From assembly GCA_964019415.1 (NCBI GenBank), contig OZ025870.1, positions 10,631,955 through 10,695,954 on the forward strand: a DNA stretch of 64,000 nucleotides, given 5' to 3'. Each line of letters begins with the position of its first letter. Positions within the stretch are counted from its first letter, which is position 1. The position numbers and the translations under genes were made by a program. The notes below the pieces were generated by a model. It was not told the origin of the DNA and ran no database searches. It was given only the letters and a program-made list of their open reading frames with translations. Source of the stretch: Ianthella basta. Taxonomy: Eukaryota; Porifera; Demospongiae; Verongiida; Ianthellidae. Positions 3,001 through 61,000 of this stretch are shown in pieces.

Positions 3001-6000
3001 GCTACCAATGCCACACTGGACATCAACCAGGCTTGCATTGATGCATCGAATGTCCAGTGGATTATTGCCGCTCTGGCCTACATGGCCAATGCCATTCTGA
3101 TCTTTGAGCTCTTATCTGTGTTCAGGTATAAAATTTACATATACCTATAACTATTGCATATACCTGTGCGGGTAGCCAGAGCACTATACACGTCTCTACA
3201 TTCCTTCTGCAGGACAACGGGTGTGTACGTGAGAGTTATTCTAAAGATTATTGTGTCCGACCTGCTGAAGTTTATAGTGATCTTTGTCGTTGTCCTATAC
3301 ATCTTTGTTGGGTCCTTTTATCTGTCCCTGAGGGCCGGAGTGACCGTCAACATGTCAAATGGAGTCACCACATCAGACTTGGAGCGATTCAGACTAGATA
3401 CCCTGTAAGCGGCAGAAGTGATGCACAAGCAGTTTGCCCCTGCATGTGAAGTTTGTTCCATATACATGTGCACATCATACAGGTACCCCTGGAACGTGGT
3501 GTTCACTGGTATCCGCATCCTAATTGAGGGTGGAGATATCTTTAGAGGCCAGTACTTTAATGAAGAGTCAGGCTACCAGTGGGTGTACATGCAGTGATAC
3601 CACCTGGTCCTGCATGCCTGTCCATTTGTGTGACTCTCCTTCACATCACTCCCTCCCTCCACAGATGGCTCTCTGTTGTCTTGTACCTAGCCTTCCTGTT
3701 TAGTATGACTGTGATCCTGCTGAGCATGCTGATTGCCCAGATGAGTGATACGTATAGCAAAATACACGAAGGTGTGAAGAAGAGCTTTGCTATTGTAAGG
3801 GCTACAGGCATTAACAGGATCCAGAAAGAAAACTGGTTGCCATTTTGTAAAGAAGTGAGTGCAGAATACAGGCAATATTGCTAAGCATGTGCATGTGTTA
3901 AAGTGCCTGACCTGCATCTTTCTTTTTTACCTGCAGACGTACAGGAAGCGCTACTACTGCCCAATAGTAGAGACAGGTTAGTCATTTTGTTGCTCTTGTA
4001 AATGTTACATTTGTAATGAATCTGGAATTTCTCACATTGGTCTGATCAGTACCAGTACTAGAGATCTACGCATTTTTTACAATCTGAAAGTATTAAAATA
4101 TTAAAGCGAAGGGCACAGATGAGGGGCTATCAGCTTGTTACTTTCCAAGGGGTACCAGTATATGGGTCTCCTTGTGTTATGAGATGTGATGTAAGCTAGT
4201 CTAATAGAGTAGTCTATTTGCGCCCCTTTATTCTACAAGACTTAGACACTAAATTCTAAGCTGCATGAGCTCTACATATCCATAATATCTTCATTAAAGG
4301 TCACTGTGTATTGCATGAACCTGAATTGTGTTAATGCTATATCTTACGCTCATTTCGTGAGTCCCCTTACAAGCTGTTAGATATTAGAAGGATGCAGGGA
4401 AATCAGAAAATTTAATTCACAAAATATCCTCAGGTGCATCATGCATGACCTGCAAAGTACCCATCTAAACGACCACCTCTTTGAAAAGACCACCTTAAAA
4501 AATAGGACTGCTTTGGTTTCTAAATCAGTCCCAAATTCATGTATGTATTTAGTCAGGTGTCGCGTGACCCCTCCTCACAGAAGGGTCAGGTTAAGTCTAA
4601 TACATTGACTTGTCCACGTGGAATGCAATTATCTGCTGTGGAATGTAATTATTGTGCAAGATTATGCCTTGCTTGTGGCTGCAAGTATGCGCAACGGCTC
4701 GCGACATTTACCTAATTTTTCATAATAGCCGTCAAAGGAGCGACAGCAAAGACTATCGATGTCCCTTCGACCGGCAACACCAGGACAAACACTGTCGGCG
4801 GGCACACGTAGCACAGGCTCTTACCAAAGCCGGTTGGCAAAACAGCGAAAACATCCCTCCTAGAAACGATGCCAGACACGACCTGAAGTTGCTCTGGCTT
4901 CATGGTATAATAACCAAGGCGCTGAATGGCTTCCGTCGCAACATATAACACTCTCTGGTCCATGCTCGGGTCTGCTGCCATTTGCAGATACGCAAGGGAT
5001 AAATATTTCACACCTTTCCTGCAATCGGATTGGGCACGCAACCATTGTGGCGTGCTACACACTTCAATGTATTAGACTTAACCTGACCCTTCCGCGAGGA
5101 GGGGTCACGGGATGCCTGACTAGTATGTATTATGATTTTCAGAATTAAGACCACCTCAATAATAAGACCACTTTGCATGGCCGGACCATGGTCTTAATTC
5201 TGAGGTTCCACTGAACTTACCATACATAGCCACTCCTCTATCCTCAGTGCTCACTGATAAAGAGTTGAGACCACACGAACAGGAGGCTGAGCAGAGATTT
5301 GTGTGAGTTTGTTCATATTGTAATAATAACATTAATATAATATGCACAAAATACCAACCGAACATTTTGTGAATGGCTGTCAATATATGTATGGGGTCTG
5401 AGATGTTTCCAAAAAGTCACAAAGGAAGCTGGCTATGGTACATTGTGACTTACTGGCCAAAGCTTGTTAGGAATTACTGAACAAGGCCAACGCATGTGCA
5501 TGGTGGGCATCTGATTGGACGAATGATGCAGAGATAGCCACACCTTAAACACTGGCCATTTTCAGCAGCTATTTTAATGATGTTATATTGTATGGGCAAA
5601 TTTCTTGGAAGAAAAATTGGCTCAATCTGTGATGCCTAGTGGCCATTTTGCCACTGCACAGCGATTAGGTCCCTGCATGATTGTGTTTTTGATGTGCATG
5701 TAAGCGGTTTTCTTGGTACGTGTGTGTACCAATCTGAAAATTCATGCAGGCACCCTTGCTTAATGTGCAGTGGAACCCCACTAAAGGACCACCTCTGTAA
5801 AATGACCACCTTAACAATAGGACCACTTTGGCTTAGTCCCAAATCTATGTATACATGAATAATGGTACTCAGAATTAAGACCACATTGAAAATGCAGTGT
5901 AACCTTAGAAATAAGATCACCATCCAGGCCATGAAAAGTGTTCTTTTTCGATGTGGTCTTTATTCTGATAGCCATTATTCATGTATACATGAAATTGGGA

Positions 6001-6504
6001 CTAAACCAAAGTGGTCTTATTATAAAGGTGGTCGTTTTATAGAGGTGGTCGTTAGCAGAGTTCCACTGTAAGGCCACTTTTCATGGCCCGGATGGTGGTC
6101 TTATTTCCGAGGTTCCACTGTACATGTGCTGTGCTGCTTATCCCAGCTTGCATCCTCCTTGTGCATACAGCACAATGTACTTTAGAGTTACCAAACTGTT
6201 TGAAGAGCAGCAGCAGGAGCTGAAGAAGGAAGCCAAGTTGATGCAACAGCGATTTGACCAGCTTGAGAAAGTGATGGCTGAAATCACCAGAAGACTGCCG
6301 CCGGATATCACTGCCAGAAGACTGCGACACGTTACCATTGTCAGAAGATTTCCGCAGAATACTGATGTAGAGCGGGACGGCCCTACCTGCAATCAACCTG
6401 ATGGTGCAGAGGACCAAAGTGATACCAACAGCTGTGCCATTAAATGGAGTGACACTGATGATGACCTTGATGATGGAGATGCTGGTGGTGGCCGGGATGC
6501 ATAA
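1..6504 (+). CDS. Gene A: ankyrin-repeat TRP-like cation channel, 3' part (5' end outside window)
   Basis: Predicted membrane cation channel with cytosolic ankyrin repeats. Exons by splice-site and paralogue comparison: 1-18, 984-1296, 1379-1460, 2023-2175, 2384-2457, 2543-2731, 2850-3125, 3213-3404, 3483-3578, 3665-3854, 3937-3976, 5248-5302, 6171-6504. The join from base 3 is open for 669 codons and ends in TAA. Seen: ankyrin motifs (QTPLHMAAKGG, NFPLDLAAAEQ); S1 near ALRMLFLALALLIAARP; S2 near GICIILFLAKFVDEM; S3 near LLAVFLPVLIIPF; an extracellular loop with CASTGDGYC and NATNAT sites; S4, S5 (YIFVGSFYLSLRAG), a pore segment YPWNVVFTGIRILIEGGD, and S6 ending LLSMLIAQMSDTY. The C-terminus is a coiled coil (EEQQQELKKEAKLMQQRFD) and an acidic tail. 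Oddities: the exon 14 acceptor sits 9 nt upstream of the paralogues' site, and the exon 8 donor is GTACAT. Family assignment (TRPV/TRPA-like) rests on layout and the post-S6 helix; the subfamily is uncertain. Confidence 0.85.
1712..1913 (-). repeat. Dispersed repeat, copy 1, ending in an (AAAC)n tract
   Basis: This stretch of gene A intron 5 is about 80% similar to 12258-12412 in gene B intron 2. Shared landmarks are GGATATCTCTTC, GGGCGATTTCAACCCGTGG and TTATAATCCCTAAG. This copy continues into a short AAAC-type tract at about 1890-1913, like the tail of a SINE or LINE. Reading the minus strand gives a similar peptide in both copies (PRVEIARLAV), but no protein family is recognised. Confidence 0.6.
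4550..5122 (-). mobile_element. RecQ-helicase-carrying DNA element 1 (9-bp target duplication)
   Basis: A 573-bp element with inverted ends of about 60 bp starting TAGTCAGG (left TAGTCAGGTGTCGCGTGACC, right end the complement of TAGTCAGGCATCCCGTGACC). It is flanked by GTATGTATT at 4541-4549 and again at 5123-5131, an exact 9-bp duplication. Removing the element restores the host MITE sequence seen intact at 5768-6068, which fixes both boundaries. Inside, on the minus strand, is the first part of a RecQ-type helicase. A 9-bp duplication is typical of Mutator-like elements, but no transposase remains, so the superfamily is open. Confidence 0.8.
4712..5062 (-). pseudogene. RecQ-type helicase N-terminal fragment
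   Basis: A 116-codon reading frame resembling the start of a RecQ superfamily-2 DNA helicase. The Q/0 motif reads RLGYYTMKPEQLQVVSGI, motif I (Walker A) is LPTGFGKSLCY, and motif Ia is AVAPLTAIMKN. Nothing beyond motif Ia remains: the DEAH box, helicase C-terminal lobe, zinc-binding and winged-helix parts are absent, against several hundred residues in a full RecQ. It lies wholly within the TIR-bounded element 4550-5122, with its start next to the right end, and is cargo of that element and not a host gene. Confidence 0.75.
5768..6068. mobile_element. Fold-back MITE, CAGTGGAACC ends (intact copy)
   Basis: The element has arms of about 120 bp. The left arm starts CAGTGGAACCCCACTAAAGG and the right arm is the complement of CAGTGGAACTCTGCTAACG, followed by TA. 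The internal arms match through TAGTCCCAA and ATGTATACATGAATAATGG. A related fragment follows at 6069-6120, ending GGTTCCACTG. It lies in gene A intron 14, immediately upstream of the last exon. The ends suggest mobilisation by a pogo/Tigger-type transposase (inference). Confidence 0.7.

Positions 6505-32842: not shown

Positions 32843-61000
<28,158 letters not shown>

Follow-up and report, generated by a model that had tools for sequence, protein, structure and literature searches.

AcademH elements are DNA transposons whose helicase is of the RecQ type. This helicase is accompanied by target site duplications (TSDs) of 9 or 10 base pairs (bp) (PMC10045372), its domains are described as DEAD and Helicase_C (PMC10799480), and the elements occur in animals and fungi according to the title of the paper reporting them (Kojima 2020, Mob DNA 11:15). 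AcademX elements are described with a TSD of 3 or 4 bp and a nuclease in place of the helicase (PMC10045372). RecQ is also encoded by KolobokH, reported in the source from fungi only, the Kolobok TSD being the 4-bp TTAA (PMC9587614). Here, we describe an element at positions 4550-5122 of a 64,000-nucleotide stretch of the sponge Ianthella basta genome (contig OZ025870.1, positions 10,631,955 to 10,695,954; hereafter the window). A sequence-only reading had regarded it as a RecQ-carrying transposon fitting no named superfamily. The lack of a fitting superfamily is not supported, because the pairing of a helicase with TSDs of 9 or 10 bp matches AcademH, and because longer elements with 9-bp TSDs in the same genome combine RecQ with a protein of the Pfam family DUF6589. 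The window element therefore very probably represents a family of AcademH-type DNA transposons that is non-autonomous and internally deleted.

The element is 573 bp long, is bounded by terminal inverted repeats (TIRs) and lies inside an older repeat:

4459-5216: older host repeat holding the inserted element (flanks 4459-4549 and 5132-5216)
4541-4549: left copy of the 9-bp TSD GTATGTATT, read directly
4550-4613, plus strand: left TIR, beginning TAGTCAGG
4706-4711, minus strand: 5' splice donor that follows RecQ exon 1, TAG/GTAAAT in the window copy and CAG/GTAAGT in the consensus
4715-5071, minus strand: open frame of 119 amino acids (aa), start of RecQ helicase lobe 1, with Walker A LPTGFGKSLCY
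5059-5122, minus strand: right TIR, 89% complementary to the left TIR
5123-5131: right copy of the 9-bp TSD GTATGTATT, read directly

At 64 nucleotides, the TIRs agree with the length of about 60 bp given in the sequence-only reading, and the exact 9-bp target duplication reported there is likewise present. The 26-base pattern at the TIR start occurs twice in the window and in none of 100 shuffles.

The coding content had been read as the start of the first RecQ lobe, an identification borne out by matches of the 119-aa frame to the Pfam DEAD domain (E 6.4e-6; 26.4 bits, barely above the 26-bit cut-off) and to E. coli RecQ as the best PDB entry (1oyw, E 8.4e-7). What has to be revised is its strand, which is minus, and its nature, as the coding part resembles an entire first exon that terminates at a splice donor. 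The start codon is probably the M of MAADPSMDQRV, and the consensus frame ends in APLTAIMKDQ, directly followed by the donor CAG/GTAAGT. A donor motif was matched in 12 of the 20 copies searched, 10 times as CAG/GTAAGT, and the Q codon at the exon end is a TAG stop in the window copy. Among 120 public relatives listed, 20 were fetched, of which 16 are at 46-66% identity; DQ is kept at the exon end by 12 of these 16, which diverge from each other beyond it, as expected at an exon end. Thus, the element seems to retain a complete RecQ exon 1 and not an arbitrary fragment. Changes from the consensus are evenly spread over the three codon positions (117, 132 and 135 in 21 copies), and no selection was seen in the same copies (nonsynonymous/synonymous ratio 2.15 versus 2.46 expected with transitions weighted 4); judging by its substitutions, the exon is drifting.

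The family was searched for in the 209-Mb genome from which the window derives. All 40 copies scored, the best of 247 candidates, are near-full-length, comprising the window copy and 39 others at 89-92% identity. Furthermore, the 27-base TIR start with at most 2 mismatches was found at 185 sites in forward and 184 in reverse orientation, and the reversed control gave none in either. The mean distance from the consensus is 4.1% (21 copies), and that of the window copy 6.5%. When 20 of the 39 other copies were fetched, the TSD was exact at 9 bp in 12, and 9 bp was the best-scoring length in 19 when lengths of 4-12 were compared. These duplications vary in sequence, and a TSD length of 9 bp is a trait of the family. 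This bears on the comparison with Kolobok that the sequence-only reading had proposed. A relative of KolobokH, that is a RecQ-bearing Kolobok, would account for the helicase (PMC9587614), but its 4-bp TTAA duplications and its reported restriction to fungi contrast with the 9 bp of varied sequence found here, so that this origin is refuted by TSD length and can be given practically no weight.

The insertion itself is documented by a well-supported empty site. With the joined flanks as a query, the best 40 of 360 candidates were scored; two of them correspond to the two halves in the window itself, and the remaining 38 cross the junction. The insert is absent from the junction in 13 aligned paralogues and in the local copy at 5768-6068, with only small length differences at the adjacent ATGTATAC tract, and it is because these paralogues carry no insert that the site is considered empty. 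The sequence-only reading had derived a precise empty site from the local copy, taken as intact. The site stands, but the alignment of this copy crosses the junction with gaps and mismatches, which marks the copy as a diverged relative that does not show the pre-insertion sequence letter for letter. The host repeat (4459-5216; also 5768-6123) is itself high-copy, with nested inverted repeats and an abundance of GACCACCT/AGGTGGTC motifs.

The longer elements were recognized when a RecQ-family genome search and inspection of open reading frames (ORFs) revealed a second gene adjoining RecQ, with DUF6589 found by Pfam in 6/6 scanned ORFs of this gene. The longer relatives carry DEAD and Helicase_C domains, detected by Pfam in the L036 ORF and through RecQ-family matches. 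A genome-wide search for DUF6589 yielded 58 matches at 39 loci, with a helicase match at most 6 kb away at 26 and none listed at 13. The two genes are convergent at 21 of the 26 linked loci and on the same strand at 5 (C10:154605-160326, C3:4512448-4518147, C3:976476-979908, C6:7518220-7521652 and C6:7529813-7533245), possibly a variant gene order. Three elements could be traced to both ends (5940, 5391 and 6878 bp). They have TAGTC...GACTA termini, the first 20 TIR bases are identical at both ends, and each is flanked by an exact 9-bp TSD (TGTTGTTAG, GTGACCAGT and CGGCAGGAG). The layout of the window family, with TAGTCAGG termini, a 9-bp TSD and a RecQ exon, is the same.

According to near-identical copies, the ends on the RecQ side lie, in five families, at TAGTCTCG or TAGTCTGG or no more than about 14 bases away; the L031/L032 match extends about 13 bases beyond TAGTC, so that this pair alone does not fix the end. 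The ends of L050, L051 and L054-L057 were located by searching for TAGTC upstream of RecQ and thus start with it by construction, the site with a stem being chosen where several occurred (L050, L051, L054 and L057). By eye, an inner GGTCW appears to repeat the terminal TAGTCW, the variable base being A for the window family and T for the rest. An inner TIR hairpin was considered as a diagnostic feature and dropped, as most ends are equalled by shuffles; it remains a suggestion only. In the copy consensus of the left window TIR, the TGACCC/GGGTCA stem of 6 bp is matched by 22 of 100 shuffles and is weak alone. Among the six ends compared in this way, the 14-bp hairpin of L036 was equalled by none and that of L047 by 8, while the remaining four, including the window family, were equalled by 22-27 of 100. 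The L056 end, outside these six, has an 11-bp stem.

A Mutator-like element (MULE) that captured a RecQ exon in the style of a Pack-MULE would also produce a 9-bp TSD and long TIRs, and the capture of gene fragments by MULEs is known (PMC9168764). However, the window element shares its TAGTC ends and 9-bp TSD with longer RecQ and DUF6589 elements, and Pfam scans (E <= 0.01) of 6 DUF6589 ORFs and 5 DUF6589 relatives returned only DUF6589 and one sub-cut-off DUF570, with no MULE domain. In addition, of 30 RecQ loci, it is the DUF6589-linked L047 that the window RecQ matches best (E 8.6e-17), although loci with no DUF6589 listed nearby match too (L055, 6e-14; L051, 1e-12; L049, 1.4e-7; L029, 5e-5). 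A Mutator origin, one of the comparisons suggested in the sequence-only reading, is very unlikely. KDZ/Zisupton transposases have a Pfam model of their own and their TSDs are 8-9 bp long; the KDZ domain was not listed in the same scans.

Pfam lists DUF6589 as a family of unknown function. The predicted fold of a DUF6589 relative resembles the P-element and Hermes transposases, and the relative retains candidate D-D-E residues; relatives of named source come from molluscs and hemichordates. We infer that the DUF6589 protein is the transposase, probably a DDE enzyme of the RNase-H fold in which a helical insertion precedes the last acidic residue. The domain, whose function Pfam leaves blank, is linked to a likely DDE transposase by its gene neighbourhood, by the TIRs and TSDs, and by the predicted fold.

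Several observations weigh against the assignment to AcademH. With regard to the enzyme, Foldseek returned no PDB match at E <= 0.001 for the predicted DUF6589 structure, and D531 is as invariant as E535, so that conservation does not settle the third catalytic acid. The literature searched yielded no mention of DUF6589, whose membership in Academ is presumed from descriptions of AcademH. With regard to the termini, TIR bases 1-11 of the window family differ by 2 from those of the closest longer families (L050, L054, L055 and L057), and beyond TAGTC its TIRs have little in common with the longer elements. A Repbase rule for placing non-autonomous elements asks for equal TSD length and at most one mismatch over the aligned bases 1-11 (PMC4455052); the TSD length is equal here, but 2 mismatches out of 11 are one too many. 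This rule is a rule of thumb giving a sufficient condition, not a definition, and the longer RecQ and DUF6589 families likewise exceed it when compared with each other, with 3 differences between L036 and L043. Finally, no element combining TAGTCAGG TIRs with a transposase was found among the matches listed, and no DUF6589 locus lies within 20 kb of an exon-1 match among the best 150 of 710 candidates scored, the nearest being 21 kb away. As 100 of 369 TIR sites were listed, a parent may be missed in these searches.

Alternatively, the RecQ and DUF6589 elements could form a RecQ-bearing superfamily of their own, apart from Academ, from which the window element derives. The status of DUF6589 in Pfam and the literature is in keeping with this, as is its merely presumptive membership in Academ. 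It would, on the other hand, make a coincidence of the presence in two lineages of a helicase with 9- or 10-bp TSDs as described for AcademH, and we regard a separate superfamily as improbable.

For the AcademH-type family preferred here, 11 loci were selected as candidate parents because their RecQ frames were long or their TIRs oddly spaced, and all were rejected. L064 and L065 share a foreign insert of about 1.1 kb, L066 and L073 have inserts near element position 263-285, L067 and L071 are family copies with other extra sequence, and L068 is a family copy of the usual length. The 188-214-aa frames of L063, L069 and L070 continue into flanking or repeat sequence, and in L072 two TIR matches of 28 bases point the same way and RecQ is absent. 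The insert common to two of these copies (about L064:247-1386 and L065:136-1257) has CACGGCTGTTTC at both left breaks and open frames of 161 and 139 aa with no Pfam match. The genome search with the TIRs that the sequence-only reading had advised has thus recovered many copies, but no full-length TAGTCAGG relative with a transposase among the matches listed. A full-length relative from a described RecQ superfamily, named there as grounds for abandoning its view, is nearly at hand in the RecQ and DUF6589 elements, which differ in their TIRs.

A scan for TAGTC...GACTA pairs revealed a further non-autonomous element of this type in the window, distinct from the first:

50571-51327, minus strand: second non-autonomous element, TAGTCTC at both ends
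50562-50570 and 51328-51336: its exact 9-bp TSD CACAAAATG

Of the first 20 bases, its two ends have only 13 in common, with GACTTTCGCCAGGTACTCGTGGC shared further inward, and it has relatives across the genome (best 40 of 191 candidates scored). It carries a RecQ exon fragment ending MRDQ/GTGAGG, with the last exon base at 50868 and a Pfam DEAD match that is weak and under the cut-off (E 0.0025). Both window families have retained the parent's helicase side, namely the N-terminal RecQ exon region with its 5' splice donor (CAG/GTAAGT in the consensus of the 4550-5122 family; CAG/GTGAGG in the window copy at 50571-51327). That both families could act as mobile 5' exon traps is a rather unlikely idea; if true, downstream host exons would receive a start codon, a short N-terminal part of RecQ and a splice donor from a copy inserted in sense within an intron. 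In the same vein, a role in cis for the helicase-side terminus might explain why both families retained it. Elsewhere in the window, positions 6287-6367 hold 3 tandem units of 27 bp, possibly within coding sequence.

In the proposed mechanism, the DUF6589 transposase would bind the TIRs, perhaps through the terminal GTCWGG motif and its subterminal echo, excise the element and join it to a target cleaved at points 9 bp apart. The role of the RecQ helicase would be the unwinding or processing of DNA in the course of transposition. The window family would stem from a parent from which the transposase gene and everything of RecQ past intron 1 disappeared with both TIRs retained, and the family would be mobilised in trans by a parent that is not among the matches listed for the assembly.

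Taken together, we conclude that the window element represents a new non-autonomous family of a lineage, AcademH, that is itself already described. An apparently unclassifiable element thereby becomes an ordinary non-autonomous one, and AcademH-type elements in this sponge gave rise to high-copy miniature families that keep a helicase exon without a transposase. Compared with known systems, Mutator elements resemble it in the 9-bp TSD, the long TIRs and the carriage of gene fragments, but differ in the MULE domain, which was not found in the related longer elements. KolobokH is likewise a DNA transposon with a RecQ helicase, but differs in its TTAA duplication of 4 bp and its reported occurrence in fungi only, and AcademX, although of the same superfamily as AcademH, is described with the shorter TSD and the nuclease. 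The agreement with AcademH, whose superfamily Academ the sequence-only reading had listed among its comparisons, extends by description to both the helicase, present as RecQ exon 1 only in the window element and as DEAD and Helicase_C in its longer relatives, and the TSD, exact at 9 bp in the window element and in 3/3 longer relatives. The longer elements pair this RecQ-type helicase with a protein of predicted DDE fold, and the window element differs from AcademH in being non-autonomous, with RecQ exon 1 as its only remnant and without a transposase.
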